The notes beneath the pieces are model-generated. The model was given only the letters and a program-made list of their open reading frames with translations, made no database searches and was not told where the DNA came from. From Bacteroidaceae bacterium (GTDB lineage Bacteria; Bacteroidota; Bacteroidia; Bacteroidales; Bacteroidaceae), in the NCBI GenBank assembly GCA_017649485.1, contig JAGCGS010000006.1, forward strand, positions 1 to 33,397: a DNA stretch of 33,397 nucleotides, written 5' to 3'. Position 1 is the stretch's first letter. The number at the start of each line of letters is the position of its first letter. Of the stretch, positions 18,556 through 33,397 are shown piece by piece. The translations under genes and the position numbers were made by a program.

Positions 18556-21030
18556 ATGAGTAATTTTTTATTTAACGACAAAGAAGACAGACAAGAGAAT
18601 TTAATTTCAGTGTTCACAGATCTCGATAGCGAATCAGATGAGAAGTTTGTGAGTATAGATGTAAAGGAAGAAATGCCCATTTTGCCCATTAGGAATATGG
18701 TGCTCTTCCCAGGAGTTGTGTTGCCTGTAACTATTGGCAGGAAGCCTTCATTAAGATTGGTGAAGGATGCAGAACGCAAAGGAATGCAAGTAGGTGTGTT
18801 CTGTCAAAAGCAATCAGATACTGATGACCCCATGTTGGATGACCTGCATAATGTGGGTGTGGTGGCTAAGGTGGTGCGTATGCTGCAGATGCCTGACCAG
18901 ACAATAACTGTGATTTTACAAGGATTCAGACGCATTAATCTATTGGAACTTACAGAATATGTTCCTTATCTAAAGGGTAGGGTAAAGCCCATGAGGGATA
19001 TTATGTTCCAAAAGAATGACAAGGAATATAGGGCATTGGTTGATGCCGTTAAAGAACAGGCTATCAAATACGTAAGATTGTCGGACATGGTTCCGCCAGA
19101 TTCTGCTTTTGCCATTAAAAACATCACAAGCGACTTTTTCCTCGTGGATTTCCTTTGTGCCAATCTGCCTCTGAAAAAAGACGAGAAGATTGAGTTGCTG
19201 ATGATGGACTCTCTCAAAGACCGTACTTACCGATTGTTGGAGTTAATGAGCAGAGAGGTTCAGCTGGCTGAAATCAAGGCATCAATACAGATGAGAGCAC
19301 GTGAGGATATCGACCAGCAACAGCGTGAATATTTTCTGCAGCAACAGATTAAGACGATCCAAGACGAATTGGGCAATGGCTCTCGAAGGGACATTGAAGA
19401 AATGCGCAAGAAGGCCGATAGCATCAAGTGGAACGAGGATGTGAAGCAAACTTTCTTGAAAGAGGTGGATAAGCTGGAGCAGATGCACCAGCAATCTCCT
19501 GAATATAGCATGCAATTGGATTATCTCAAGACGATGATGGCATTGCCTTGGGGCATCTATACTAACGATAACCTGAATATTCAGAATGCGGAGAAAGTAC
19601 TCAACAAAGATCATTATGGGTTGCAACGCGTCAAGGAACGCATTTTGGAACACCTGGCCGTGTTGAAACTGAAAGGCGACATGAAATCGCCCATCATTTG
19701 CCTCTATGGTCCTCCGGGAGTGGGCAAGACCTCGTTGGGTAAGTCTATTGCAACGGCATTGAAACGCAAGTATATACGCATGTCGCTTGGTGGTGTGCAC
19801 GACGAAGCAGAGATTCGTGGACATCGCAAGACCTACATCGGTGCTATGCCTGGCAGAATCATCAAGGGTATGATCAAGGCAGGCTCTTCCAACCCCGTGA
19901 TTGTATTGGATGAGGTAGATAAGTTGGGCATTGATGTGCATGGAGACCCCTCTTCAGCTTTGTTGGAAGTGCTCGACCCGGAACAGAATTCTACTTTCCA
20001 CGATAATTATTTGGATGTGGATTACGACCTATCGAAGGTGATGTTCATCGCTACAGCCAACAACTTGCAGAACATTCCTCAGCCTTTGCTCGACCGCATG
20101 GAACTGATAGAATTGAGTGGTTATCTGACTGAGGAGAAGATTGAAATTGCCCGTAGGCATTTGGTTCCCAAACAGCTAGATGCTAATGGCATGAAAAAGG
20201 GTGAGGTGAAGTTCCCCAAGGCAACTTTGGAAGCTATCATTGAGGACTATACCCGAGAGAGCGGTGTGCGAGAGTTGGAGAAGAAGATAGGCAAGGTTCT
20301 TCGTAAGATGGCTCTCCAATATGCTAAAGATGGCTATTTGCTAAAGAATGATGTCAAGCCAGCTGATTTGCGTGGTTATTTAGGTGTGCAGGAATACAGT
20401 CGCGACAAATACCAAGGCAATGACTATGCTGGTGTGGTGACAGGCTTGGCATGGACGGCAGTTGGCGGAGAGATTCTCTTTATAGAGACCAGTCTGAACA
20501 GGGGCAAGGGCAAGTTGACACTGACTGGTAGTCTGGGTGATGTGATGAAGGAGTCGGCTATGCTGGCAGTTGAATATATCAAGGCACATCCGCAACTGTT
20601 GAACATCGATGTGAGGGTGTTTGAGCAATGGGACATCCATATTCATGTACCAGAAGGAGCTGTACCTAAGGATGGTCCTTCGGCTGGTATCACAATGGCC
20701 ACCTCTCTTGCTTCGGCTCTGACCCAACGCAAGGTGAAAGCCAACATCGCTATGACAGGAGAAATCACCTTACGCGGTAAAGTATTGCCTGTGGGAGGTA
20801 TCAAGGAGAAGATCTTGGCAGCTAAACGTGCTGGAATCAAGGAGATAATCTTGAGTGAGGCCAATCGAAAGAATATTGAGGACATTCAGCAAATGTACAT
20901 TGAAGGTCTGACTTTCCACTTCGTGAAAGATGTGAAAGAGGTGTTTGACCTGGCATTGTTGCAGGATAAAGTGGCGGATGCCATCGACCTGACGGTGGTT
21001 GAAGAACATAAAACGAAAGAAGAAGAATGA
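18556..21030 (+). CDS. lon: ATP-dependent protease Lon
   Basis: 824 aa from the ATG at 18556 (MSNFLFNDK). An in-frame ATG at 18523 would add 11 unrelated residues (MWWQIIIGEKT) close to the promoter, so I prefer the later start. The N-terminal LAN domain ([20 protein letters not shown]) is followed by a long coiled coil, the AAA+ domain with Walker A GPPGVGKT (385-392) and Walker [11 protein letters not shown], and the protease domain with the catalytic pair Ser709 (DGPSAG) and Lys752 (GGIKEK). Degrades misfolded and regulatory proteins in the cytosol. No HSP-type operator is seen. tgt follows after about 70 nt that contain a heptad repeat array. Confidence 0.96.
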
Positions 21031-21066
21031 TTTTTGTTCATTGATGTTGTCCATCTGTACATGAAT

Positions 21067-21100
21067 GGTCAATAATCAATCGTCAATGGTCAATGATAAT
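21067..21100. repeat. Heptad array abutting the tgt start
   Basis: Four phased 7-bp units on the plus strand: GGTCAAT (21067), AATCAAT (21074), CGTCAAT (21081), GGTCAAT (21088), then a degenerate GATAAT to 21100. This orientation contains ATG and no stop codons, so it creates an in-frame extension of tgt back to 21065. Same family as the arrays at 23418, 23553, 32248 and 32343-32459. Confidence 0.85.
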
Positions 21101-21103
21101 ATG

Positions 21104-22234
21104 ATGACTTTTGAGTTACAATATACTGATAGCAAAACAAATGCCCGTGCCGGACTGATGACTACGGCTCACGGCCAGATAGAGACTCCTATCTTCATGC
21201 CCGTGGGAACAGTAGGGTCTGTCAAAGGAGTGCAGGTGAATGACTTAATGGATGATGTGAAGGCACAGATTATCTTGGGCAACACATATCATCTATACCT
21301 CCGTCCAGGACTGGAAGTCTTGGAACGGGTAGGAGGTCTTCATAAATTCAATGCTTTCAATCGTCCGATGTTGACTGACAGTGGAGGTTTCCAAGTGTTT
21401 TCGTTGGCAGACATCCGCAAGATGAAAGAGGAAGGTGTGGAGTTTCGATCACATATCGACGGTAGTAAATTGTTCTTCACCCCAGAGAAGGTGATGGATA
21501 TTGAACGTAGCATCGGTGCAGATATTATCATGGCTTTCGATGAATGTACACCTGGCACAGCCGATTATACATATGCCAAACCATCGATGGAGCGCACACA
21601 CCGTTGGTTGGATCGTTGTATTCAACGCTATCAGGAAACAGAGCCCAAGTATGGTTATCACCAGTCACTTTTCCCTATTGTACAAGGATGTGTTTATCGT
21701 GATTTGCGTACCCAATCGGCTGAGTACATCGCTTCAAAGGAGGCTGAAGGCAATGCCATAGGTGGATTGGCAGTTGGGGAACCTACCGAGGTGATGTATG
21801 AGATGATTGAATTGGTCAATGGTATCTTGCCAAAGGACAAGCCTCGTTATCTAATGGGAGTGGGAACACCCGCCAATATTTTGGAAGCCATAGAACGAGG
21901 TGTAGATATGTTCGATTGTGTGATGCCTACTCGCAATGGTCGTAATGGTATGTTGTTTACCAAGCACGGCATCATGAACATGAGGAATAAGAAATGGGAG
22001 TTTGATTTCTCGCCCATCGAAGAGGATGGTGCATCGAAGGTGGATACGCTGTATAGCAAGGCCTACTTGCGTCACCTGTTTCATGCTCAGGAACTCCTTG
22101 CTATGCAGATTGCCTCGCTCCACAATCTCGCATTTTATTTGTGGTTGGTTGGCGAGGCCAGGAAACATATCATTGCAGGAGATTTTGCCACATGGAAGCC
22201 CAAAATGGTTGAACAGGTATCACAAAGATTGTAA
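21104..22234 (+). CDS. tgt: tRNA-guanine transglycosylase lacking the zinc-binding cysteines
   Basis: 376 aa from 21104 (MTFELQYTD). The adjacent ATG at 21101 is equally possible; ATGs at 21065 and 21086 lie in the heptad array and give a repeat-encoded tail, so I reject them. Exchanges G34 for a queuine precursor in tRNAs with GUN anticodons. TIM-barrel motifs are present: PIFMPVGTVGSVKGV, LTDSGGFQVFSL, GGLAVGEP, and the nucleophile Asp271 in FDCVMPTRNGRNG. Where bacterial Tgt has CxCxxC, this protein has Gly309, Ser311 and Asp314; only the fourth ligand, His340, remains, at the expected 26-residue spacing. The stop overlaps the next gene start (TAATG). Confidence 0.94.
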   Translation: MTFELQYTDSKTNARAGLMTTAHGQIETPIFMPVGTVGSVKGVQVNDLMDDVKAQIILGNTYHLYLRPGLEVLERVGGLHKFNAFNRPMLTDSGGFQVFSLADIRKMKEEGVEFRSHIDGSKLFFTPEKVMDIERSIGADIIMAFDECTPGTADYTYAKPSMERTHRWLDRCIQRYQETEPKYGYHQSLFPIVQGCVYRDLRTQSAEYIASKEAEGNAIGGLAVGEPTEVMYEMIELVNGILPKDKPRYLMGVGTPANILEAIERGVDMFDCVMPTRNGRNGMLFTKHGIMNMRNKKWEFDFSPIEEDGASKVDTLYSKAYLRHLFHAQELLAMQIASLHNLAFYLWLVGEARKHIIAGDFATWKPKMVEQVSQRL

Positions 22235-23418
22235 TGGGAAAGTTTTGGAATATAGGAGGATGGAGAGATAAGCTTAAGCTTTGGTTAAATAATCATGCTT
22301 GGGTTCAGGCCGTGTGGGAGAAGATGCCTCATAAGTACCTGAAACGCTTGGATTATTATATTATGGCTAAGTTTTTGGGTACTTACGTCTTCGCCATTGC
22401 CTTGATTATCTCTATTGCGGTGGTGTTCGATTTTAACGAGAAGATGGACCGTTTCATGCAGCATGAAGCTCCTTGGAAAGCCATCATCTTCGACTATTAC
22501 CAGAACTTCATCCCATATTTTGCCAACCTGTTCAGTCCGTTGTTCGTCTTTATTGCCGTGATATTCTTTACCGCTAAGATGGCGGAGAATTCCGAGATCA
22601 TTGCAATGTTCTCAACGGGCATGAGCTTCAAGCGTATGCTTCGTCCATACATGGTGTCAGCGGCGATTATTTCTATCGTAACTTTCTTTTTAGGGGCATA
22701 TATCATTCCCAAGGGAAGTGTTACCCGCATTAACTTCGAGGATAAGTACTACAAGGAACGTAGGCAGAGTACGGCTCGTAATATCCAGATGCAGGTAGAT
22801 ACCAATGTGGTGGCCTATATCGAACGCTATGAGGATAATCGCAAGACAGGCTATCGTTTCTCGCTCGACAAGTTTGAGGGCAAACAATTGGTATCACATA
22901 TGACGGCTCGTACCATTGTTTATGACACGCTTCATGCCAACCACTGGTCGGCAAGAGATTATATGATTAGAGAGTTAGGTGGTGAACGAGAGATTATCAA
23001 GCGAGGCAATCGCATTGACACCTTGATTCGGCTTACACCTGACGACTTGATCTTGATGCAGAATCAGCAGGAGATGATGACCAATCCTGAACTGAGTGCC
23101 TATATTGACCGTCAACGAGCAAGGGGCTTATCGAATACCGAAGAGTTTGAGATTGAGTATCATAAGCGCATAGCCATGTCGTTTGCGTCATTTATCCTGA
23201 CACTGATTGGTGCCTCGTTGTCTTCACGTAAGATGAAGGGAGGTATGGGCTTAAACTTGGGTATAGGTTTGGGTTTGAGCTTCAGCTACATCCTGTTTCA
23301 GACAGTGTCTTCTACCTTTGCTGTCAATGGTAATATGCCTCCTGTTATTGCCGTTTGGATTCCCAATATACTCTATGCCTTTATCGCTTTCTTCTTGTAT
23401 CGTAGAGCGCCGAAGTGA
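22234..23418 (+). CDS. LptF/LptG-family permease (YjgP/YjgQ)
   Basis: 394 aa. Three membrane segments near the N-terminus (about 50-75, 95-118, 140-162), a large soluble periplasmic beta-rich region (about 165-300), and three C-terminal segments (about 315-390) match the LptF/G permease layout. With LptB it would extract lipopolysaccharide from the inner membrane and pass it to the LptC/A bridge. Whether it is the F or G member cannot be told here. The start ATG shares its A with the tgt stop, indicating coupling. The TGA stop at 23416-23418 abuts a 13-unit heptad array; the only stop-free frame of that array is the frame of this gene. Confidence 0.88.
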   Translation: MGKFWNIGGWRDKLKLWLNNHAWVQAVWEKMPHKYLKRLDYYIMAKFLGTYVFAIALIISIAVVFDFNEKMDRFMQHEAPWKAIIFDYYQNFIPYFANLFSPLFVFIAVIFFTAKMAENSEIIAMFSTGMSFKRMLRPYMVSAAIISIVTFFLGAYIIPKGSVTRINFEDKYYKERRQSTARNIQMQVDTNVVAYIERYEDNRKTGYRFSLDKFEGKQLVSHMTARTIVYDTLHANHWSARDYMIRELGGEREIIKRGNRIDTLIRLTPDDLILMQNQQEMMTNPELSAYIDRQRARGLSNTEEFEIEYHKRIAMSFASFILTLIGASLSSRKMKGGMGLNLGIGLGLSFSYILFQTVSSTFAVNGNMPPVIAVWIPNILYAFIAFFLYRRAPK

Positions 23419-23508
23419 TTGACCATTGACCATTTACCATTGACGATTGACCATTTACCATTGACGATTGACCATTTACCATTGACGATTGACCATTTAC
23501 CATTGATA
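23418..23508. repeat. Thirteen-unit heptad array, 21-bp higher-order period
   Basis: Thirteen perfectly phased 7-bp units on the plus strand: ATTGACC, ATTGACC, ATTTACC, then three copies of the 21-bp block ATTGACG-ATTGACC-ATTTACC, and a final ATTGATA. The first base of the array is the last base of the upstream permease gene's TGA stop. It faces a smaller inverted array at 23553 across a hairpin. Confidence 0.95.
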
Positions 23509-23522
23509 GACTTACTAATTAG

Positions 23523-23554
23523 TGAAAGAAAAAGCTCGGCAATTTGCCGAGCTT
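23523..23554 (-). terminator. Terminator hairpin between convergent permease and yebC genes
   Basis: AAGCTCGGC (23532-23540) pairs with GCCGAGCTT (23546-23554) around AATTT. On the minus strand it is followed by TTTTTCTTTC, so it serves yebC best. On the plus strand there is no T-tract. It sits between two inverted heptad arrays. Confidence 0.75.
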
Positions 23555-23594
23555 CAATGGTCAATTGTCAATGGTCAATTGTCAATGGTAATCA
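23553..23594. repeat. Inverted heptad array at the yebC 3' end
   Basis: On the plus strand GGTCAAT, TGTCAAT, GGTCAAT, TGTCAAT, GGTAAT (23559-23592), preceded by a partial TTCAAT. Read from yebC on the minus strand it starts at its TGA stop: TGATTACC, ATTGACA, ATTGACC, ATTGACA, ATTGACC. Here the higher-order period is 14 bp, unlike the 21 bp of the facing array. Confidence 0.92.
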
Positions 23595-24320
23595 TTCCTC
23601 TGGCTTCATGTTGGTATAAACATTCTGCACATCGTCGAATTCCTCAAGACGTTCCACCATCTTGTCAATGGTTTCACGTTGCTCTGCAGACACATCCTTC
23701 AAGTCGTTAGGAATGTAAGTAAAGTCACCACCAACATCTTCAAAACCTTGCTCCTCCAAATGCTTCTGTATAGCAGAGTAGCTCTTGGGGTCGCCATAGA
23801 TAGTGATGGTACCTTCCTCATCATCAACGTCGTATTCCTCTTCCACATCATAGTCAATCATCTCCAGGATAAACTCATCCATGTCCAGATTGTCTTTCTT
23901 TTTGAAAGTGAACACCGCCTTATGGTCGAACAAATATGCCAGTGAACCCATAGTACCCAGAGTGCCACTGAATTTATTGAACACTGAACGCACATCAGCT
24001 ACAGTACGAGTAGGGTTGTCAGTCAGTGCGTCAACAAAGATAGCCACGCCATGAGGGCCATAGCCTTCATAGGTCATGCTCTTATAATCACTCTGATCTT
24101 TACCCATCGCATTCTTGATGGCGCGATCAATATTATCCTTTGGCATGTTCTCACGCTTGCAGTTGGCGATGAGTGAACGCAAAGTAGGATTGTTTTCAGG
24201 ATCTGGGCCACCTGCTTTAACGGCAATAGCTATTTGCTTGCCCAGACGTGTGAAGGTCTTAGCCATGTGACCCCATCTCTTCAGCTTAGCTGCTTTTCTA
24301 TATTCAAACGCTCTTCCCAT
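23592..24320 (-). CDS. yebC: YebC/PmpR-family protein
   Basis: 242 aa, cytosolic, normal length. Opens MGRAFEYRKAAKLKRWGHMAKTFTRLGK and continues with NPTLRSLIANCKRENMPKDNIDRAIK and YEGYGPHGVAIFVDALTDN, the most conserved YebC segments. An acidic middle region (DVEEEYDVDDEEGTI) follows. Members bind DNA as regulators or, in several bacteria, help ribosomes through proline stretches; which applies here is not visible. It starts 21 nt after pheT on the same strand, so the two are probably cotranscribed. Its TGA stop is the edge of a heptad repeat array. Confidence 0.93.
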   Translation of the reverse strand: MGRAFEYRKAAKLKRWGHMAKTFTRLGKQIAIAVKAGGPDPENNPTLRSLIANCKRENMPKDNIDRAIKNAMGKDQSDYKSMTYEGYGPHGVAIFVDALTDNPTRTVADVRSVFNKFSGTLGTMGSLAYLFDHKAVFTFKKKDNLDMDEFILEMIDYDVEEEYDVDDEEGTITIYGDPKSYSAIQKHLEEQGFEDVGGDFTYIPNDLKDVSAEQRETIDKMVERLEEFDDVQNVYTNMKPEE

Positions 24321-24341
24321 TGGTAATTATTTTTTTATTAT

Positions 24342-26804
24342 TTATCTCAATCTTGCTCCAACCTTATCTTCCAGGTTCTTGATAAGCTTCTGCATCACTT
24401 TGTCAATCACCTTGTCATTCAAAGTTTGTGTTTCATCTTGCAACATGAAACTCACGGCATAGGATTTCTTGCCAGGTTCCAGGTGTTTGCCCTCATAAAC
24501 ATCGAACAGGTTCACGGATTTGATAAGCTTGCGGTCAGAATCAAAGGCAATCTTCTCAATCTGAGCAAACTGTACATTCTTATCCACCAGCAATGCCAAG
24601 TCACGGCGAACGGCAGGGAACTTAGGTAATTCCTTGAAGCTAACTTTCAGCGAACGGATGCTACGCATCACCTCAATCCAGTTGATATCAGCATAATAAA
24701 CGGCATTGTCGATGTCAAACTGCTTCAGGATCTTGCGGGTCACTGAACCTATCATCGCCAAACGCTTGCCTCCATGTGTCTTAATCACGATAGCAGAGGC
24801 ATATATGTCAGTTTTCAGGTTCTCAATGTTGAGATCACGCATACGCAATCCCAGACGACCAAAGATATTCTCTACAAATGCCTTCAGCATATAGGCATTA
24901 TTCTCCTCGTCACCATGAATCCAAGAACCTTGCTTATCCTTACCTGTGAGCCACAAGGCCAAGTGATAACTCTCAGAGTAGGGGGCTAACGCCTTTTCTT
25001 CATTGCGCTTGTCTTCACGATAATAATAGCAGTTGCCAAACTCGAACAACTTTAAGTCTGGATTCTTGTGATTAGCATTGCGTGCAATCGTTTCCAAACC
25101 ACCAAATAACAAGGTCTCCCTCATTACGTTCAAATCGCTGCTTAATGGGTTCATCAGACGTACCAGGTTCTCAGCTGGATATGAAGAAAGGCCTTCATAG
25201 TAAGCAGCTTTTGTCAGCGAATTATTCATGATCTCGTTAAAGCCTGCACCCACTAACTGCTCAGAAATTATATTCTGCAATTTGTTACTCTTATCCGTTT
25301 CCGTCTCAGCCACCAAGCTTGATTTAAGCGTTGTAGGAATCTCCACATTATTATATCCATAAATGCGAAGGATATCCTCAATCACGTCGCAATCGCGCTG
25401 TACATCCACACGATACTGAGGCACATCGAGTGTCAGACCCTCAGCGGTTTCAGCAACCACCTCCATCTCCAAACTCTTTACAATACTTTTCACTGTTTCA
25501 GCTGGGATAACCTTGCCTATCAGTTCGTTAACACGCTGATAAGTCAATTCAACCCTGAATGGAGGGAAGTCTTTACATGATACATCCTTAATCTCAGAAG
25601 AGATTGTACCCCCTGCCAATTCTTTCACCATCATCGCAGCCAGCTTCAAAATATATATTGTGTTGTTTGGGTCGATGCCGCGCTCATAGCGGAAAGAGGC
25701 GTCAGTGCTCAATCCGTGACGACGTGCTGTCTTGCGAATCCATGTTGGGTGGAAGTAAGCACTCTCTAAGAACACATTCTTTGTCTCCTCAGTAGTTCCA
25801 GACTCTAAACCACCAAACACACCACCAATGCACATGGGCTCTTCCGTGTTGCAAATCATCAGATCTCGCTCGCTCAACTTACGCTCCACACCATCCAAGG
25901 TTACGAAAGGCGTTCCTTCCGGCATCGTCTTCACAATCACCTGGTTGCCCTTTATCTTGTCGGCATCAAAGCAGTGCATAGGGTGACCGAAGGCAAACAA
26001 TATATAATTGGTGATATCTACAATGTTGTTGATAGGACGCAAACCTATCATGCGGAGGTCGTTCTGCAACCACTCAGGACTCTCCTTCACTGTAACGCCC
26101 TTGACGGTTATACCAGCATATCTCGGACAAGCTTCGCCATTCTCAATGGTCACGCTGATGTCCAGATCGTTGTTATCCACCTTAAATCCATCCACACTCG
26201 GTTTATGCAGTTGGGTAGGGATGCCACGTTGCACCAGGTATGCATATAGGTCGCGGGCAACTCCATAATGAGAGCAAGCATCAGCACGGTTAGGTGTAAT
26301 GTCCACTTCCAATACAAAATCGCTCTTAATATTGTAATAATCTTTGGCAGGTGTACCAACCACAGCATCTTCAGGTAAAACAATGATGCCAGAGTGGTCT
26401 GTTCCAATACCTATTTCATCTTCGGCGCAAATCATGCCGCAAGAATCAATGCCGCGGAGCTTGGATTTCTTGATGGTAAAGCAATCGTCACCGTCGTACA
26501 GTTTCGTGCCGATGGTAGCCACCACCACTTTCTGTCCTGCGGCAACATTAGGTGCTCCGCATACAATCTGTACAGGCTCACCCTTGCCAATATTCACCGT
26601 TGTTACATGCATGTGGTCTGAGTTAGGGTGGGGTTCACAAGTCAACACCTCACCGATAACAAGACCTTCTAATCCGCCCTTGATAGCCTGGATCTCTTCC
26701 ACGCCTCCCACTTCAAGACCTATAGAAGTCAGTGCGTCAGCCAGTTTCAAAGGACCTAAATCGAAATCTACAAACTCTTTAAGCCAGTTATAAGATATGT
26801 TCAT
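24342..26804 (-). CDS. pheT: Phenylalanyl-tRNA synthetase beta subunit
   Basis: 820 aa, full length. Typical start MNISYNWLKEFVDFDLGP. The tRNA-binding EMAP/OB-like domain covers about 40-155 (GLVIGEVLTCEPHPNSDHMHVTTV in segments). A B3/4 editing domain follows, with the B5 domain and the catalytic-like core containing RYERGIDP (about 375). A C-terminal anticodon-binding FDX-ACB domain opens FPAVRRDLALLVD. With PheS it charges tRNA-Phe. pheS is not adjacent here; yebC follows instead. A promoter-like TAACTTTG lies about 37 nt upstream. Divergent from the patatin gene. Confidence 0.97.
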   Translation of the reverse strand: MNISYNWLKEFVDFDLGPLKLADALTSIGLEVGGVEEIQAIKGGLEGLVIGEVLTCEPHPNSDHMHVTTVNIGKGEPVQIVCGAPNVAAGQKVVVATIGTKLYDGDDCFTIKKSKLRGIDSCGMICAEDEIGIGTDHSGIIVLPEDAVVGTPAKDYYNIKSDFVLEVDITPNRADACSHYGVARDLYAYLVQRGIPTQLHKPSVDGFKVDNNDLDISVTIENGEACPRYAGITVKGVTVKESPEWLQNDLRMIGLRPINNIVDITNYILFAFGHPMHCFDADKIKGNQVIVKTMPEGTPFVTLDGVERKLSERDLMICNTEEPMCIGGVFGGLESGTTEETKNVFLESAYFHPTWIRKTARRHGLSTDASFRYERGIDPNNTIYILKLAAMMVKELAGGTISSEIKDVSCKDFPPFRVELTYQRVNELIGKVIPAETVKSIVKSLEMEVVAETAEGLTLDVPQYRVDVQRDCDVIEDILRIYGYNNVEIPTTLKSSLVAETETDKSNKLQNIISEQLVGAGFNEIMNNSLTKAAYYEGLSSYPAENLVRLMNPLSSDLNVMRETLLFGGLETIARNANHKNPDLKLFEFGNCYYYREDKRNEEKALAPYSESYHLALWLTGKDKQGSWIHGDEENNAYMLKAFVENIFGRLGLRMRDLNIENLKTDIYASAIVIKTHGGKRLAMIGSVTRKILKQFDIDNAVYYADINWIEVMRSIRSLKVSFKELPKFPAVRRDLALLVDKNVQFAQIEKIAFDSDRKLIKSVNLFDVYEGKHLEPGKKSYAVSFMLQDETQTLNDKVIDKVMQKLIKNLEDKVGARLR

Positions 26805-26840
26805 ATCATTGAAAATTTATTGTTATCACATAAAATCATG

Positions 26841-26848
26841 CAAAGTTA
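26841..26848 (-). promoter_or_regulatory. Candidate pheT-yebC promoter -7 element
   Basis: The minus strand reads TAACTTTG, an exact TAnnTTTG, 36 nt upstream of the pheT ATG, followed by the AT-rich CATGATTTTA. No good TTTG lies 19-20 nt upstream. Confidence 0.5.
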
Positions 26849-26931
26849 GCATATTTTTTCTGAAAGAGATACATAAATCGCAAGAAATTGATTACTTTAG
26901 CAGACCAATTAGGAAAAACTGCGTTAATTCT

Positions 26932-27690
26932 ATGGCAACTGGCTATAAATATCAGACTGGTTTCGTGCTCAGTGGAGGCTTTATCAAGGGCTTTGCACAC
27001 CTTGGTGCCATGCAGGCTTTGATAGAGCGCGACATCCGTCCACAGATTATCAGTGCCACCAGTGCAGGTTCGTTGGTTGGGGTGCTATATGCTGATGGCA
27101 ATGAGCCCTATCAAGTGTTGGAATTCTTCAAAGGTATGAAGTTCTCCGACCTCACCAAGCCTGTGTTACCCACCACCGGTTTCTTTGAGCTTGATGAGCT
27201 ACGGGATTTCCTCAAATCACATCTTAAACGCCAAAGATTGGAACTGTTGCCTGTGCCTATGGTGGTCACAGCCACCGACCTTGATCACGGCAAGACGGTG
27301 CTTTTCCGCCAAGGGGATATAGCCCTGTGTGTAGCTGCTTCGTGTTGTATGCCAGTGCTATTTACACCCATCACCATTGATAATACACGCTATGTGGATG
27401 GGGGTGTACTGATGAACCTACCTGTATCGCCTATCCGCCAAGAGTGCAAAACCATCTATGCCATCAATGTCAGTCCGATGCCCAGTCCTGAGAGTAAGAT
27501 GAACATCCTGAGCATTGCTGAGCGCACCTATCACTTGATGTTCCGCTCTAATGCAGTAGGCGAACGGACTTTGGCTGATGTGTTGATAGAACCCATGAAC
27601 CTCTCTGGCTATAGCAACATAGATTTAGACAAAGCAGATGAGATTTTCAGGTTGGGATATGAGAAAGCTAATGAAATAATTAAGCATTGA
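26932..27690 (+). CDS. Patatin-like phospholipase
   Basis: 252 aa from ATG 26932 (MATGYKYQTG). The frame is open further upstream to 26797, but that part is AT-rich, overlaps pheT and its promoter, and does not resemble the family. Serine lipid acyl-hydrolase fold: oxyanion loop LSGGFIKGFAHLG (13-25), nucleophile elbow ATSAG with Ser44, and Asp156 in VDGGV completing the Ser-Asp dyad. The first elbow residue is Ala, where the family usually has Gly (GxSxG). No signal peptide. It leads a tight plus-strand group: GH13 enzyme 6 nt later, then a phosphatase and an outer-membrane protein. Substrate unknown. Confidence 0.85.
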   Translation: MATGYKYQTGFVLSGGFIKGFAHLGAMQALIERDIRPQIISATSAGSLVGVLYADGNEPYQVLEFFKGMKFSDLTKPVLPTTGFFELDELRDFLKSHLKRQRLELLPVPMVVTATDLDHGKTVLFRQGDIALCVAASCCMPVLFTPITIDNTRYVDGGVLMNLPVSPIRQECKTIYAINVSPMPSPESKMNILSIAERTYHLMFRSNAVGERTLADVLIEPMNLSGYSNIDLDKADEIFRLGYEKANEIIKH

Positions 27691-27696
27691 TAATAT

Positions 27697-29382
27697 ATGA
27701 AAAAGATAATCTATCAGGTGTTACCCCGTTTGTTTGGCAATGGTAACGAACGCTGTGTGAAGAATGGCACCATCCGTCAAAACGGATGTGGTAAGTTGGC
27801 TAACTTCACACCTTTGGCATTACAGAGAATCAAGGAGTTGGGGGCTAATTATATTTGGTACACCGGCATCATAGAACATGCTACGCAAACAGACTATTCG
27901 CGTTATGGCATTCAGCAAGACCATCCTGCGGTGGTGAAAGGCAAAGCTGGCTCTCCTTATGCCATCAAGGATTATTATGATGTAGATCCAGATTTGGCAA
28001 TGGATGTGCCCAGTCGCATGCATGAGTTTGAGGCATTGGTAGAGCGTACCCATCAGGCAGGATTAAAGATGATTATTGACTTTGTGCCCAACCATGTGGC
28101 TCGCCAGTATCATAGCGATCAGTTGCCTTCGGGTGTGAAACAGCTTGGTGAGACTGACAATACAGATTATGCTTTCAGCCCCACCAATAATTTCTATTAC
28201 ATACCCAAGACAGAGCTGCAAGGACAGTTCGACATGCAGGGCGAGGCACCTCTGCCATACCATGAATACCCAGCCAAGGCAACGGGTAATGATAAGTTCG
28301 ATGCTTATCCGGGTAAGAATGATTGGTATGAAACCGTCAAGTTGAACTATGGCATCGACTATATGAGTGGTTGGCAACGGTATTTCAACCCTGTGCCAGA
28401 CACTTGGCACAAGATGCTGCACATTCTACTCTTTTGGGCAGGCAAGCACATTGACGGTTTCCGTTGTGATATGGCGGAGATGGTGCCTGTGGAGTTCTGG
28501 GAGTGGGCGATACCGCAGGTCAAGAAGCAATATCCCGGTATCGAGTTCATAGCAGAAGTCTATAACCCGGCACAATACCGTGATTATATCCATCGTGGAC
28601 ATTTCGATTATTTATATGATAAGGTGGGTTTGTACGACACGCTTTTCGCAGTGATTCAAGGTCGTCAGTCAGCTTCTGCAATTAGTCAATGCTGGCAGCA
28701 AGTGGGAGATATTCAGGATCACATGCTGAACTTCCTCGAGAACCACGATGAGTTGCGCATCGCCTCTCGTTTCTTTGCCGGCGACCCGCGCAAGGCCATC
28801 CCAGCCTTGGTGATCTCCGCATGCCTGAACACCAACCCGATGATGGTGTATGCAGGCCAGGAGTTAGGTGAGGCAGGAATGGATGAGGAAGGCTTCAGTG
28901 GCCAAGATGGTCGGACAACTATCTTCGACTATTGGAGTCCTGATTCTTTGCGGCGTTGGTATAACATTGGCGCGATAGATGGCAAGTTGCTTACTCGCGA
29001 AGAGAAAACCCTGCTCAAGGTTTATACCCGAGTGCTGAACCTTTGCAACAGTGAGGCAGCCTTCCGTGAAGGTCAGTTCTTCGACCTTACCTATGCCAAT
29101 ATCGGTGGTTGGCGATTCAATGAACATCGTCAGTTTGCCTTCGTCCGTAAGTTCGATAAAGAATTGATATTAGTTATTGTCAACTTTGATGCAGACCCTG
29201 TTGATATAGCCATTAACCTTCCTACTCATCTGTTTGAATATTTCCATATTCCAGAGATGGAGCACGTCAAGGCTCAAGATTTGCTCACTGGAAAACACGA
29301 GTTTATCAACGTATCTCCGTGTCATGCTATGGACGCGGTGATTCCAGGCTATAGTGCCAAACTGCTAAAGATAATAATGTAA
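27697..29382 (+). CDS. Cytoplasmic GH13 alpha-amylase-family glycosidase
   Basis: 561 aa, no signal peptide. The four GH13 regions are present in order: DFVPNHV (128-134), GFRCDMAEM with nucleophile Asp258, EFIAEVY with acid/base Glu287, and FLENHDE with Asp351. The N-terminus starts directly in the barrel (KIIYQVLPRLFG), and a C-terminal beta-sandwich follows (about 465-561; FAFVRKFDKELILVIVNFD). Acts on alpha-glucans or related oligosaccharides in the cytosol; hydrolase or transglycosidase, and the linkage, cannot be told. Starts 6 nt after the patatin gene. Its TAA stop shares its last A with the ATG of the phosphatase gene. Confidence 0.87.
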   Translation: MKKIIYQVLPRLFGNGNERCVKNGTIRQNGCGKLANFTPLALQRIKELGANYIWYTGIIEHATQTDYSRYGIQQDHPAVVKGKAGSPYAIKDYYDVDPDLAMDVPSRMHEFEALVERTHQAGLKMIIDFVPNHVARQYHSDQLPSGVKQLGETDNTDYAFSPTNNFYYIPKTELQGQFDMQGEAPLPYHEYPAKATGNDKFDAYPGKNDWYETVKLNYGIDYMSGWQRYFNPVPDTWHKMLHILLFWAGKHIDGFRCDMAEMVPVEFWEWAIPQVKKQYPGIEFIAEVYNPAQYRDYIHRGHFDYLYDKVGLYDTLFAVIQGRQSASAISQCWQQVGDIQDHMLNFLENHDELRIASRFFAGDPRKAIPALVISACLNTNPMMVYAGQELGEAGMDEEGFSGQDGRTTIFDYWSPDSLRRWYNIGAIDGKLLTREEKTLLKVYTRVLNLCNSEAAFREGQFFDLTYANIGGWRFNEHRQFAFVRKFDKELILVIVNFDADPVDIAINLPTHLFEYFHIPEMEHVKAQDLLTGKHEFINVSPCHAMDAVIPGYSAKLLKIIM

Positions 29383-29855
29383 TGGACCAGACAAGAATTC
29401 TCTTTGTGTGCTTGGGCAACATCTGCCGTTCGCCAGCTGCTGAGGGTATTATGAAATATTTGGTGGAAAAGGAGGGTAGGGAGGATGAATTCTTCATCGA
29501 CTCTGCCGGCATTGGAGGTTGGCACATTGGCCAACTGCCCGACAGTCGCATGCGTCGTCATGGTAAGCTTCATGGCTACAACTTCAACAGTAGGGCTCGC
29601 CAGTTTCAGCGTGACGATTTCGACCGCTTCGACATCATTATTGGCATGGATCACGAGAACCTCAGTGATATCCGTTGGAAAGCTCGTTGCCAGGATGATA
29701 TTCTGAAGATTCACTCTATCACGGAATACCTGCGCCATCATCCGGGACATCATAGCGTGCCTGACCCTTATTATGGCGATGATGGCTGTTTCGAGTTAGT
29801 CATCGAATTGTTGGAGGATGCCTGCCAAGGTTTGTTGGATGCTCTTACAAAATGA
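29382..29855 (+). CDS. Low-molecular-weight protein-tyrosine phosphatase
   Basis: 157 aa, normal length. The P-loop FVCLGNICRSP gives Cys10 and Arg16 of the C(X)5R signature, and the general acid Asp lies in the VPDPYYG segment near residue 130. Cytosolic phosphatase. In other bacteria such enzymes often partner tyrosine kinases that control capsule synthesis, but no kinase or capsule gene is present here. It overlaps the GH13 gene by 1 nt and the next gene by 4 nt (ATGA), so translation of all three is probably coupled. Confidence 0.93.
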   Translation: MDQTRILFVCLGNICRSPAAEGIMKYLVEKEGREDEFFIDSAGIGGWHIGQLPDSRMRRHGKLHGYNFNSRARQFQRDDFDRFDIIIGMDHENLSDIRWKARCQDDILKIHSITEYLRHHPGHHSVPDPYYGDDGCFELVIELLEDACQGLLDALTK

Positions 29856-32248
29856 ATGTGTTGATGCAAAAACTATATAAAGCTTTATTGCTTATAGCAA
29901 TCGCCGTACTGCTGCCTGCTTCTCTCAAGGCGCAGGATATGGTAACCAGTGTCGAGAACCATGGATTGGAAAGAACTGTCAGCTATAATGTGGCCAGCTT
30001 CACAGACATACGCGACAAAAAGCTGGAAGATGTGATGAGTAAGATGCCTGGCATCTCGAAAATAGAGATGGGAGAGGGCTCTTATTCTTATAACGGCTTG
30101 GTTATCGACCGCATGTATATCAACGGCAAGGATGTGCTGGAAGGCAATTATACGGCTATCTATAATATGAAGCCGGAGGATGTGGAGCGTCTTGAGATTA
30201 CCGAGAACCATGTCTATATGAAGGTGATGCGCGGTAAGCAGTTCAGCAACTCTGCTTCCATCAATGTGGTTCTGAAGAAAGAGGAGACCAACCAGTGGTT
30301 TGGCTCCGTCAAAGGTGGACTGGGTTTGAGTCCGTTGCTGGTCAATACCGACCTCATCGCCATGAAGATGGGCAATAAATGGCAAACCACCCTGCTGTTT
30401 CAAACAGACAATACCGGTCTCACCTTGGGCAACGCCGTGAGAGGCTTTGGCGGAGTTGGTATGGATGATGGTGCATGGGACAGCGACCCTTACTCGCTGA
30501 GTGGCATCAACTATAAGGTCAAGAGCTTTCTCGACCTCGAACCCGAACTGGCTCCTTTGTCGCTCGATAGGGTGCGGTTCAACCGTAGTGGAGTCTTCAA
30601 CCTTGGTACCACTGTGCAGCTCAAGAATGACTATCAGTTGAATTTCCAGCTGCTCTTCCATTCCGACCGTCTTACGGCCTACAACGGCACTGAAACCACC
30701 TATTATATGGATGGTGGACAAACTATCGATTATGTCTCTACCGAGCGATCCAAGAACCACCAGAACGATATCCAGGCTGACCTGGTCTTGCTCTCTAACA
30801 CTGACAAGTATTTCCTGCGCAACAACTTGAGCTTTGCCACCCAATGGTATGATACCCATACTGTTGTGACAGGCTCAGCTCCCAATACAATGAATGGCAC
30901 CAACAAACCGCTGCTGCTGAAGAACAGTTTCCAGTATAAGTTGCCACTGGGTGAGAATGTGCTGACCATCGGAGCCAATGCCGGACTCTATTCCCGTCCG
31001 CAAAACCTCAGTGTTTCAAAGGAGCGTGAAGGTACTATCCGTCAGGAAATCAGTTCCTATTCAGCTTATGCCGAGGCTAAAGCCATGTTGGACAGGCGCA
31101 TCAGCAACCACCTTACATTCTCGCTTTATGCGGGACTGTCAGGCAACTTGCGTCAGCTGAAAGCCGATATGTTGGAGCTGGTTGATCACGAATTGCAGGA
31201 TGTGAAGTCGCGCTTCAATGCATATAATATTTATAGTGGAGCCTCGCTGACCTACATATCCGACCGCTTGCAAGCCTCTGTCTCGTTGCCTATCGACTAT
31301 TCGCATTTCGCTTTAAAAGACCTGATGAATCAGTCGAAGCGGCATGCGTCGAAGTACTATTTCTCGCCTGAGCTTACGCTAACCTACATACCTTTCCAAT
31401 TCCTTTCGCTCAATCTTGAGGCGGCTCTCTATGACAACGAGCATCCCCGTATGGATATATACAAAGGTATGGTGTTCAGCGATTTTCGTACGCTCAACGA
31501 AGGCTATGCAGGCTTTCGTGGCAGTAAATCTACCTACGCTCAGCTTACAGCCAGTTTCAGTTGGCCCAAGAGCTCCTTCTTCGTGAATGCCAATCTGGGC
31601 TATTGGGGTACGAAAGAATACTGGGGCGAGGTGATGGATCTCGACACGCAGTATATGGTCAACAAATATACCGAGGATCCTGGTGAGGAAAAGAGCTTTG
31701 ACGCCAGCATAGACATCAGCAAGGGCATTGAGACATTCAAAGGTATGGTGGGCATCAAGGTGGCTGCTTCTTTGTTCGACAGTGATGTTGAGCGTAATGG
31801 GGTCACATTGCCCTTCAAGAGTCGTGTGTTCAACGTTTCTCCCTATATCAATGGTCGCCTGAATGCTTGGTGGAACATGATATATAAGCTGCAGTATTCA
31901 AGACATAGTACCGAGATGGATGACAGTTCCACCTATTTTGTATTCCACGACTACAACCACTCGCTTGAAATGATATTCTCGCCTTGGAGTAAGTTCAACT
32001 TCAGTGTCTTGGGTGAGCACTACCATACTGAATTCTCTAATAACCTGACGAAGGATTTGGTGCTGTTCGACTGCAAGGCTGAGTATAATCTCACGAATAA
32101 TCTGCAGCTCATCCTCTCTGCCAAGAACATCTTGAATCAGAAGATTTACAAACTGACTGTCGAAGATACTGATTTGTTTGCCAAGTCGTATTCATCTTAC
32201 GACATCCGCCCCCGAAATGTCCTGCTGAGCTTGTATTATAAGTTTTGA
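29852..32248 (+). CDS. Outer-membrane beta-barrel protein with TonB-receptor-like plug
   Basis: 798 aa. Signal peptide about 1-28 (LLLIAIAVLLPASLKA, then QD). Residues about 40-135 resemble a TonB-dependent receptor plug (LEDVMSKMPGISKIEMGEGSYSY, IDRMYINGKDVLEGN, ERLEITENH, SINVVLKK). The rest is a barrel of amphipathic strands ending in LLSLYYKF with a terminal Phe, the signal recognised by the Bam complex. It lacks the N-terminal carboxypeptidase-regulatory-like domain of SusC proteins and has no SusD neighbour; no clear TonB box is seen. It may be a receptor/transporter or an outer-membrane assembly factor. The ATG at 29864 is an alternative start. The TGA stop abuts a heptad array. Confidence 0.82.
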   Translation: MNVLMQKLYKALLLIAIAVLLPASLKAQDMVTSVENHGLERTVSYNVASFTDIRDKKLEDVMSKMPGISKIEMGEGSYSYNGLVIDRMYINGKDVLEGNYTAIYNMKPEDVERLEITENHVYMKVMRGKQFSNSASINVVLKKEETNQWFGSVKGGLGLSPLLVNTDLIAMKMGNKWQTTLLFQTDNTGLTLGNAVRGFGGVGMDDGAWDSDPYSLSGINYKVKSFLDLEPELAPLSLDRVRFNRSGVFNLGTTVQLKNDYQLNFQLLFHSDRLTAYNGTETTYYMDGGQTIDYVSTERSKNHQNDIQADLVLLSNTDKYFLRNNLSFATQWYDTHTVVTGSAPNTMNGTNKPLLLKNSFQYKLPLGENVLTIGANAGLYSRPQNLSVSKEREGTIRQEISSYSAYAEAKAMLDRRISNHLTFSLYAGLSGNLRQLKADMLELVDHELQDVKSRFNAYNIYSGASLTYISDRLQASVSLPIDYSHFALKDLMNQSKRHASKYYFSPELTLTYIPFQFLSLNLEAALYDNEHPRMDIYKGMVFSDFRTLNEGYAGFRGSKSTYAQLTASFSWPKSSFFVNANLGYWGTKEYWGEVMDLDTQYMVNKYTEDPGEEKSFDASIDISKGIETFKGMVGIKVAASLFDSDVERNGVTLPFKSRVFNVSPYINGRLNAWWNMIYKLQYSRHSTEMDDSSTYFVFHDYNHSLEMIFSPWSKFNFSVLGEHYHTEFSNNLTKDLVLFDCKAEYNLTNNLQLILSAKNILNQKIYKLTVEDTDLFAKSYSSYDIRPRNVLLSLYYKF

Positions 32249-32296
32249 TTGACCTTATACCATTGACCATTGACGATTTACCATTGACCATTTAAA
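32248..32296. repeat. Seven-unit heptad array after the beta-barrel gene
   Basis: Seven phased 7-bp units on the plus strand: ATTGACC (32248), TTATACC, ATTGACC, ATTGACG, ATTTACC, ATTGACC, ATTTAAA. The first base is the last base of the TGA stop of the beta-barrel gene, exactly as at 23418. It faces an inverted array at 32343-32459 across a terminator hairpin. Confidence 0.9.
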
Positions 32297-32311
32297 GACA
32301 TATTGCTTTAC

Positions 32312-32340
32312 AAAAAAGGCTGCAGAAATGCAGCCTTTTT
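32312..32340. terminator. Bidirectional terminator between beta-barrel and SGNH genes
   Basis: AAAAAAGGCTGCA, GAAA tetraloop, TGCAGCCTTTTT: a 7-bp GC-rich stem (32318-32324 with 32329-32335) with A-tract and T-tract on either side, so it can terminate in both directions between the convergent genes. Confidence 0.92.
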
Positions 32341-32342
32341 GG

Positions 32343-32356
32343 GGTCAATGGTCACT
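32343..32356. repeat. Two heptad units on the inner side of the inverted array
   Basis: GGTCAAT (32343-32349) and GGTCACT (32350-32356) directly follow the terminator. They are separated from the rest of the inverted array (from 32425) by about 68 bp of unrelated sequence, and the two blocks are not in the same 7-bp phase. Confidence 0.75.
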
Positions 32357-32424
32357 TTTCGGAGCAGTGAGAGCAGAGCGATGCTTGCATCAACTATGCC
32401 GAGTCGCGACGAAATTGGAGCGTA
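32357..32424. other. Non-heptad segment within the inverted array
   Basis: About 68 bp that is more GC-rich than the surrounding array. It contains a GATGC-TT-GCATC hairpin (about 32381-32392) and the palindrome GTCGCGAC (32403-32410). No coding potential and no tRNA-like fold. It may be a small dispersed repeat or a remnant; I cannot identify it. Confidence 0.45.
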
Positions 32425-32459
32425 GCTCAATGGTAAATTATCAATGGTCAATGGTCAAC
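32425..32459. repeat. Inverted heptad array containing the SGNH hydrolase stop codon
   Basis: Five phased units on the plus strand: GCTCAAT (32425), GGTAAAT, TATCAAT, GGTCAAT, GGTCAAC (32453-32459). Read on the minus strand, the TGA stop of the SGNH gene (32455-32457) lies inside the first unit, GTTGACC. Confidence 0.88.
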
Positions 32460-33165
32460 GGCAAAGCCTCAATATTTCAGCCTTCACGATAGGCTCCATG
32501 ATGGCATAGCCTTCCAGATTTGGATGCACGCCATCGGGAGAGTACTTCTTTGGCAATCCCTGATTCTCATCCTTCATCAGCGTAAAGAAATCGATGTAGC
32601 TAACACCATTCAGCTTTGCATAACTCTCCAACATAGCATTGATTTGCAGAATCTGTTGGGTTGAGTCAGTAATCTCTGGTCTCCAAGGATACTTAGCTGC
32701 AGGCAAGATGCTCAGAATAATAGGCTTGATGCCATGAGCCTGCGCTAATTCTACCATTGAGATAATATTGCCAACCACATGCTCCACAGGTACATATTTA
32801 TCATTGCGGGCAATGTCGTTGGTACCTGCCAGAATTACCACCACTTTGGGATGCAGGTTCAGCACATCGGCACGGAAACGGACCAACATCTGAGCGGTAA
32901 CCTGTCCGCTGATGCCTCTTCCCACGAAATTGTTTTCTGTAAAGAACTCACTGTGCATGCGAGCCCAGTTGTCTGTTATGGAATTGCCCATAAACACTGC
33001 CACTGGTGTGCCTGCTGTCTTGTTGGCTTCCGCATAGCGTTCATAGTTTGCCCAAGTCTTCAGGTCATTCACGTCAATGCCTTGGGCATAGGCATTAGGC
33101 AAATAAACCATAGTCATCATAATGCCCAACAGGACATACGATAAAACATAAAAACACTTCTTCAT
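32455..33165 (-). CDS. Secreted SGNH/GDSL hydrolase
   Basis: 236 aa. Signal peptide about 1-28 (MKKCFYVLSYVLLGIMM, ending NAYA, then Q). SGNH blocks are in order: block I VAVFMGNSITDNW (Ser nucleophile), block II GRGISG (Gly), block III GTND (Asn), block V SPDGVHPN (Asp and His). Such secreted members often remove acetyl or acyl groups from polysaccharides; the substrate here is not predictable. Convergent with the beta-barrel gene and divergent from tRNA-Arg(TCT). The last codons run straight into the heptad array, which supplies the TGA stop. A weak promoter-like TATCTTTA lies at 33195-33202 on the minus strand. Confidence 0.9.
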   Translation of the reverse strand: MKKCFYVLSYVLLGIMMTMVYLPNAYAQGIDVNDLKTWANYERYAEANKTAGTPVAVFMGNSITDNWARMHSEFFTENNFVGRGISGQVTAQMLVRFRADVLNLHPKVVVILAGTNDIARNDKYVPVEHVVGNIISMVELAQAHGIKPIILSILPAAKYPWRPEITDSTQQILQINAMLESYAKLNGVSYIDFFTLMKDENQGLPKKYSPDGVHPNLEGYAIMEPIVKAEILRLCR

Positions 33166-33194
33166 ATCTTAATTCTTTTTAGTTATTCGTGCCG

Positions 33195-33202
33195 TAAAGA
33201 TA
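33195..33202 (-). promoter_or_regulatory. Candidate SGNH hydrolase promoter -7 element
   Basis: The minus strand reads TATCTTTA, one mismatch from TAnnTTTG (final A), about 30 nt upstream of the ATG. The -33 region is weak. Confidence 0.3.
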
Positions 33203-33255
33203 AGCATTATTTCATTACGATAAGCCAGGTATCACAAAAAAACTTGTGATTAATG

Positions 33256-33286
33256 TTTGTAATTAGAATAAAAAGCCTTACCTTTG
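33256..33286 (+). promoter_or_regulatory. Promoter of tRNA-Arg(TCT)
   Basis: TTTG (33256-33259), exactly 19 nt, then TACCTTTG (33279-33286): a perfect Bacteroidetes promoter. It is followed by CAGCCG, the same GC-rich stretch as in the tRNA-Arg(ACG) promoter at the left end of the window. Confidence 0.8.
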
Positions 33287-33320
33287 CAGCCGAAAATCGG
33301 ACAATGCGGTTTTATTCGGA

Positions 33321-33394
33321 GGTTCCGTAGCTCAGCTGGATAGAGCAACAGCCTTCTAAGCTGTGGGTCCCGCGTTCGAATCGCGGCGGAATCA
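33321..33394 (+). tRNA. tRNA-Arg (anticodon TCT)
   Basis: Complete 74-nt cloverleaf. Acceptor GGTTCCG pairs with CGGAATC; the anticodon stem ACAGC/GCTGT encloses CTTCTAA, giving anticodon TCT for AGA/AGG. The T arm is CCGCG-TTCGAAT-CGCGG. The 3' CCA is not encoded (ACAA follows the acceptor). The first 13 bases match those of the tRNA-Arg(ACG) gene at the left edge. Confidence 0.96.
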
Positions 33395-33397
33395 CAA

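Follow-up and report, generated by a model that had tools for sequence, protein, structure and literature searches.

Heptanucleotide repeat arrays beside stop codons of a Bacteroidaceae genome and their likeness to the arms of small selfish elements

An intervening sequence (IVS) with an IVP/S23p open reading frame is known from the 23S rRNA of Coxiella burnetii, and in a published IVS tandem heptamers precede the S23p ORF, their unit number varying between strains (PMC4990558). In that account the IVS is selfish and small, with an ORF and with inverted repeats at its ends that give a long RNA stem (PMC4990558), and the arrays of the heptad ATTGACC and its relatives that we describe here probably belong to elements with these traits, some of them with an ORF of the same-named family. 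They differ in that the two ORF-bearing copies viewed in context lie in intergenic spacers, not in a helix of the 23S rRNA gene, and in that the inverted arms are the heptad arrays themselves, with most copies lacking an ORF; an ORF inside inverted repeats is found in the ORF-bearing copies only, not in the arrays of the window. The Avd protein of diversity-generating retroelements, which works with a reverse transcriptase, is described as resembling the same family, PF05635 (PMC10053308).

Heptamers of another unit, TAACTGA, occur in Beggiatoaceae, Cyanobacteria and some Bacteroidetes (MacGregor 2015, PMC4679880). Like the heptads here, they are reported as tandem 7-bp repeats that are mostly intergenic and patchy in phylogeny, whose forward repeats overlap stop codons, whose reverse repeats encode heptapeptides in proteins, and for which mobility was considered; unlike them, they lie mostly just upstream of start codons and, as described there, have no inverted-arm rule, core or link to IVP (PMC4679880). 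The arrays here fit the heptanucleotide repeats of the LSSR/TAACTGA type, being tandem 7-bp repeats longer than chance and mostly intergenic. BrickBuilt, a MITE of Porphyromonas gingivalis, likewise contains a tandem repeat and is present in many intergenic copies, but it is described as having units of 23 nt, flanked by leader and tail sequences, and as lying only in intergenic positions (PMC4596501), whereas the arms here have 7-nt units and some are intragenic. In-frame insertion of a repeat into metabolic proteins is shared with the Rickettsia palindromic elements, which are about 150 bp long and unrelated by description, the available part of the account mentioning no heptads (PMC10969869).

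The window, the whole stretch of DNA analysed (33,397 nucleotides), belongs to an assembly of 2.6 Mb in 69 contigs that is 82.6% complete (G000). Its arrays and their neighbours are as follows; genes were called with a simple caller of our own, with exact stops and approximate starts.

21067..21094, minus strand: third array, missing from the earlier note, 3 strict units
22234..23418, plus strand: LptF/LptG permease gene, stop codon TGA at 23416-23418
23418..23506, plus strand: left arm, heptad array of 12 full units (23418-23501) and a partial unit to 23506
about 23530..23554, no strand assigned: terminator-like hairpin between the arms (AAGCTCGG...CCGAGCTT), by direct reading and fold
23552..23589, minus strand: right (inverted) arm, heptad array with 5 strict units (23552-23586)
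23592..24320, minus strand: YebC/TACO1 gene, stop codon at 23592-23594
29852..32248, plus strand: gene called beta-barrel in the earlier note, left neighbour of the second array pair
32248..32296, plus strand: heptad array at the stop codon of that gene, one unit at 32248, a degenerate unit and 5 strict units (32262-32296)
32312..32340, no strand assigned: terminator-like hairpin of the second gap (AAAAAAGGCTGCA...TGCAGCCTTTTT), by direct reading and fold
32345..32430, minus strand: dispersed hairpin element of about 75-85 bp, embedded in the heptads of the second gap
32427..32459, minus strand: inverted heptad arm of the second gap, 3 strict units (32432-32459)
32455..33165, minus strand: gene for a GDSL-like lipase/SGNH protein, to the right of the second array pair

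Behind the LptF/G gene the earlier note had read 13 phased heptads; the array is real, but comprises 12 full units and one partial (Tandem Repeats Finder: period 7, 12.7 copies), organized in a 21-bp super-repeat ATTGACG-ATTGACC-ATTTACC with 98% matches at period 21. The hairpin and the roughly five opposed heptads that it placed next are present as read, and the same plan does recur in the second gap, where the dispersed hairpin element is additional. For all four arms of both gaps the ATTGACC strand is, as had been observed, the coding strand of the gene that the arm follows. The register is tight: the final base of the LptF/G TGA is the first A of the left arm, 5 nt separate the end of the right arm from the YebC stop codon, and the inverted arm of the second gap contains the lipase stop codon TGA in register. 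The third array is antisense to TGT and lies immediately upstream of its aligned start, which is residue 14 of the ORF at 21065, or about 21104. The gene called beta-barrel is without a Pfam match, and an Rfam search of positions 20500-33397 returned nothing above the gathering score except one tRNA.

For the arms of the LptF/G-YebC gap, folding predicts a stem of high stability (-70.1 kcal/mol, z -12.3), in keeping with the long stem proposed for them; as a general plan such a stem does not hold, with two opposed arms in 12 gaps of the G000 stretches (looser finder) against 57 gaps with any array. The orthologous gap of G066 repeats the identical plan with other heptad units and another terminator stem. 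Both the fold and this shared plan, together with heptads at the 3' end of hisG in G000, G066 and G100, favor the view of the earlier note that these are functional mRNA 3'-end arrays kept by selection, as an RNA stem or as protein-binding sites. We regard that view as improbable: the gap is free of heptad arrays in close relatives (L071, G071, G063, G053, G082 and G100), presence across the genus is patchy, most array gaps of G000 hold a single arm, and arrays occur antisense at 5' ends and inside conserved proteins. In the G100 gap (L178), the place of the heptads is taken by another repeat, CTGTCGCCCCTACAGGGCT and its complement.

Confinement of the arrays to the sites of the window, which the earlier note had named as grounds for abandoning its idea, is not what we found, as arrays occur throughout G000 and densely in other species. 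A strict finder (at least 3 heptad units per array) recovered 87 arrays in 730 kb of G000 and none in a second-order Markov shuffle, and the whole genome has 86 overlapping exact three-unit matches as opposed to 0 for a reversed control pattern. Across the genus, represented by 158 genomes with that of the window counted in, the strict three-unit pattern is present in 7, with G000, G066 and G100 as the heavy carriers (55, 56 and 64 overlapping strict matches), and a looser pattern matches 76 of 399 genomes of the family, where array-dense species are scattered over several genera beside array-free congeners. The heptad arrays are dispersed and lineage-specific. Spread by phage was considered and rejected; three exact units occur in 8 contigs of a viral collection.

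Period 7 dominates the short tandem repeats of G000, with 78 arrays compared to at most 6 for any other period from 4 to 15, and it is also the commonest period at the loci of 80 relatives (38 arrays; any other period at most 11), where the units differ by species and include CATTAAG or TAACTCA. This dominance, the species-specific units, the copy number varying at orthologous sites and the nearly always stop-free intragenic arrays would all suit a bacterial satellite without any mobile element, originating by slippage and spreading by recombination between arrays, with position and strand set by purifying selection alone (no stops in genes, no promoter damage, the stop codon kept). We consider such a satellite rather unlikely on account of the paired arms described below.

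To interpret the position of arrays, we counted gaps of at least 20 nt and left out arrays at stretch ends. Eight of the 40 G000 stretches were picked regardless of arrays and the others around or beside them, and the stretches of relatives were also picked for arrays; this choice inflates the share of gaps with arrays, while orientation should be unaffected. Across ten genome groups, 5'-ATTGACC-3' is directed outward from the closest gene in 117 of 139 gap arrays and inward in 22. The excess that the earlier note had expected of a genome-wide search, at 3' ends and with the coding strand reading ATTGACC, was found: in tandem gaps, 53 coding-strand arrays lie by the 3' end of their gene and 4 by the 5' end, and in convergent gaps 26 arrays point outward and 2 inward. 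The antisense arrays of tandem gaps lie by a gene 5' end in 32 of 47 cases and the other way in 15. Three further genera gave 5 of 5 outward from small samples (16 non-overlapping loci), and solo spacer arrays have a weak polarity (19 outward versus 7 inward, p 0.03). No array was found by the strict finder in 129 divergent gaps (at least 20 nt) of the G000, G066 and G100 stretches. A total absence from divergent gaps was nonetheless rejected as a general rule, with arrays in 4 of 12 such gaps in G164 and 1 of 7 in G343; over the ten genome groups, divergent gaps hold 6 outward arrays and 1 inward.

The polarity is accompanied by anchoring. Among 46 arrays in tandem gaps that span at least 150 nt, 22 have their 5' end (ATTGACC strand) no farther than 20 nt from a gene, and just 2 have their 3' end that close to one. 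Of 57 coding-strand tandem arrays, 37 overlap the stop codon or start no more than 6 nt from it, where uniform placement would give 10.9, and by the same criterion the 3' ends of antisense arrays do so in 8 of 47 (8.5 expected). The stop codon is TGA in 43 of 58 outward cases, and in 330 of 1037 when all genes are counted. Gene truncation by arrays, considered as a cause of this stop-codon register, is mostly rejected because orthologous proteins end at the identical residue in 55 of 79 outward comparisons, which are non-independent (up to six species per gene; a usable orthologue for 39 of 70 genes); the C-terminal residue of the LptF/G protein is at an identical position in the six relatives compared. 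As judged from these alignments, coding-strand arrays usually begin at the ancestral stop codon. The 3' end of hisG is a recurrent insertion site.

Arrays inside genes obey a different restriction, with the strand free of stop codons being the one read in 41 of 43 cases (the other strand in 2) and in 14 of 15 from three more genera. Their translation gives GQWSMVN/GQSSIVN repeats, and in several conserved proteins they occupy the identical site in G000, G066 and G100 with a varying number of units, the heptads being missing from some relatives. A Pfam scan of nine array-bearing proteins placed the arrays between two domains in five (MetH, CobW, HisD-HisC, an NtrC-like regulator and an ABC protein) and outside the matched domain in the remainder, except for a sulfatase with three arrays, one of which lies within the Pfam match (residues 363-373 in 217-486) and one at its edge (206-215). 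Such intragenic placement is the behavior of a tolerated insertion, unlike a 3'-end signal. By entering coding genes through its stop-free strand, the heptad repeat places heptapeptide repeats in conserved enzymes and can thereby supply novel protein sequence. In the fused HisD-HisC gene (L034 5975-8254) the linker contains residues encoded by heptads, and hits in L199 and L072 cover the HisD-HisC junction without heptads.

Where opposed arrays share a gap, ATTGACC is followed by GGTCAAT in 37 of 37 pairs (32 gaps), an order also seen in 2 of 2 pairs from three further genera. In G343, a member of another genus, the inverted arms bracket a conserved 24-nt core, and a genome search with this core alone found 45 copies (36 exact and 9 with one mismatch) there and none in two congeners, G248, G000 or G066. 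At 30 core loci that were read, some of them in the stretches where the core was first noticed, both inverted arms are present in 26, one arm in 4 and a wrongly oriented arm in 0. At parB of G343 the whole arm-core-arm unit begins directly after the stop codon, and neither heptads nor core occur within about 190 nt after the stop in any of the 14 congeners with a hit (15 searched). A satellite gives no reason to expect paired arms in one fixed order, a conserved two-armed core or the arm-core-arm insertion at parB. These features are those of MITEs: inverted repeats around a short non-coding core in many copies are found in G343, and presence or absence of a whole unit between relatives is seen at one site, parB, while most G000 arrays have one arm and no common core. 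A core search in G164 returned the two known copies and no more.

We consider it probable, on the sequence comparisons made here, that the heptad arrays are the arms of small selfish elements of Bacteroidales, non-autonomous or one-armed and IVP- or MITE-like, rather than a dedicated 3' regulatory array. For the window this reading is carried over from relatives, because the interiors of convergent pairs in G000 and G066 are often terminators that are not shared between gaps and the solo arrays of G000 have no common core. The arms around the G343 core and around PF05635 genes elsewhere are the reason that a 3'-end or protein-binding function, as suggested by the earlier note, is not the simplest reading, and arrays antisense at 5' ends and inside conserved proteins point the same way. 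Within the selfish-element reading, heptads would grow and shrink by slippage, and transcribed inverted arms could pair into a long RNA stem that makes insertion tolerable in operon and convergent spacers, perhaps through cutting of the stem by RNase III by analogy with 23S rRNA intervening sequences. In the LptF/G-YebC gap the arms would lengthen the terminator stem, and any influence on 3' ends is expected to be no more than incidental. Heptad arrays should not automatically be annotated as regulatory sites.

In one paired gap of G000 and another of G343 a small ORF stands between the arms, and searches assigned this ORF to PF05635/TIGR02436 (23S rRNA intervening-sequence protein, IVP/S23p, a four-helix bundle; closest solved chain 2rld). 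When PF05635 loci were themselves inspected, inverted heptads were present on both flanks in 8 of 24 from the family, a count first obtained with a wider flank than the control's and again 8 of 24 under the control's criterion; 30 loci from across the order had heptads on both sides in 3 cases and on one side in 11. Overall, both flanks carry inverted heptads at 11 of 54 PF05635 loci versus 6 of 1665 ordinary genes from G000, G066, G343 and 80 relatives (Fisher 1e-13), and in the G000, G066, G100 and G343 stretches inward-pointing arrays stand on both sides of 7 of 941 ordinary genes. A period-7 array lies near 26 of 58 IVP ORFs and 64 of 837 genes, and there is an enrichment for period 8 as well (10 of 58 ORFs, 19 of 837 genes), both controls being drawn from the 80 relatives only. 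No heptads lie near 31 of 52 ORFs selected by PF05635, and from reading the family's 24 loci the excess of inverted heptads is expected to be concentrated in the IVP subfamily 'KSFAIRIIKLYQFL'.

The heptad unit in the arms of these ORF-bearing copies differs among genomes. IVP ORFs lie inside inverted repeats of the ATTGAC type in G000, G066, G173 and G343, of other units in G053 (ATTGATA), G068 (AATTATG), G443 (GATTAAA) and also G071, and inside inverted repeats in G231 as well. The G000 and G066 elements align over about 520 nt, arms included, and their left flanks have no similarity, the G066 sequence used for the comparison ending inside its right arm. Both copies viewed in context occupy spacers between protein genes (L058 10988-11523 and L240 10838-11271). 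In a sample of 198 genomes from the order of the window, 147 have PF05635 matches, and the family was not found in the array-bearing G100 (78% complete), G471 (80%) or G164 (99%, 20 array matches). An IVP ORF stands directly upstream of yebC in three relatives (L136 9533-9965, L138 9588-9966 and L102 1610-2024), and the yebC upstream spacer holds heptads in other relatives of the window.

A satellite would not predict inverted heptads around IVP genes. From these comparisons we infer that the elements may be mobile and that the IVP protein may have a part in their mobility. To our knowledge PF05635 has no transposase activity, and we know of no function for the IVP family outside retroelements. 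The IVP-bearing form would be the fuller element, of which the forms with a short core or none would be degenerate relatives, comparable to MITEs beside transposons. More tentatively, the elements could form a class of mobile element not recognised before in Bacteroidales, related to the rRNA IVS but intergenic, in which a four-helix-bundle, IVP/Avd-like gene between inverted lineage-specific heptads acts in mobility, perhaps helped, like Avd, by a reverse transcriptase supplied in trans. The heptad arrays scattered over these genomes, with those of the window, would then be its footprints and non-autonomous copies at stops and linkers. If true, this would join two orphans, the role-less heptameric repeats of several phyla and the widespread PF05635/IVP family, and would yield a testable claim on what IVP proteins act upon. 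The literature searched, with partial coverage, contained no link of Bacteroidales heptad arrays to IVP genes.

A different source of mobility would be a RAYT (Y1) transposase moving elements of the REP/REPIN type. REPs, like the dispersed palindromic elements found here, are described as short palindromes that lie mainly downstream of genes, in gaps of the tandem and convergent kind, with some inside genes (PMC3733652), and Y1_Tnp scores above the cut-off in G000, G100, G343, G248, G173, G443 and G180. Y1_Tnp (PF01797) was not found, however, in two array-bearing genomes, G066 (89% complete and rich in arrays) and G164 (99% complete), and the arms are tandem heptads with no matching RAYT pattern, unlike the 20-40 bp palindromes with GTAG or CGTC tags described for REPs (PMC3733652), which makes this explanation very unlikely.

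The 75-85 bp hairpin element embedded in the second gap is itself dispersed, with 41 model matches in G000 and many in relatives, and compensatory base changes occur in 9 of its 15 predicted pairs. Copies often lie by stop codons, usually inside heptads of one orientation, and some are translated within proteins; near stops they have no orientation bias (13 coding, 10 antisense). The possibility that heptads are merely the tails of this element was rejected as a general rule because its copies are many where ATTGAC arrays are few or none (18 in G053, 46 in G063), because it is scarce in some array-rich genomes (1 in G248, 0 in G343) and because its orientation at stops is unbiased. At the hisG stop (L034 8356, L163 10451, L186 4596, L199 2873, L072 and L096), heptad-like units whose sequence differs by genome follow in several genomes, and the hairpin element follows in G063. 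Heptad arms also have another palindromic repeat (CGTTCGTTCGGATT...AATCCGAACGAACG) next to them or in the space that they enclose (L040 18848-18976, L044 440-575, L066 1392-1682 and L058 13226-13300), and in some cases it is nested about the hairpin element's core.
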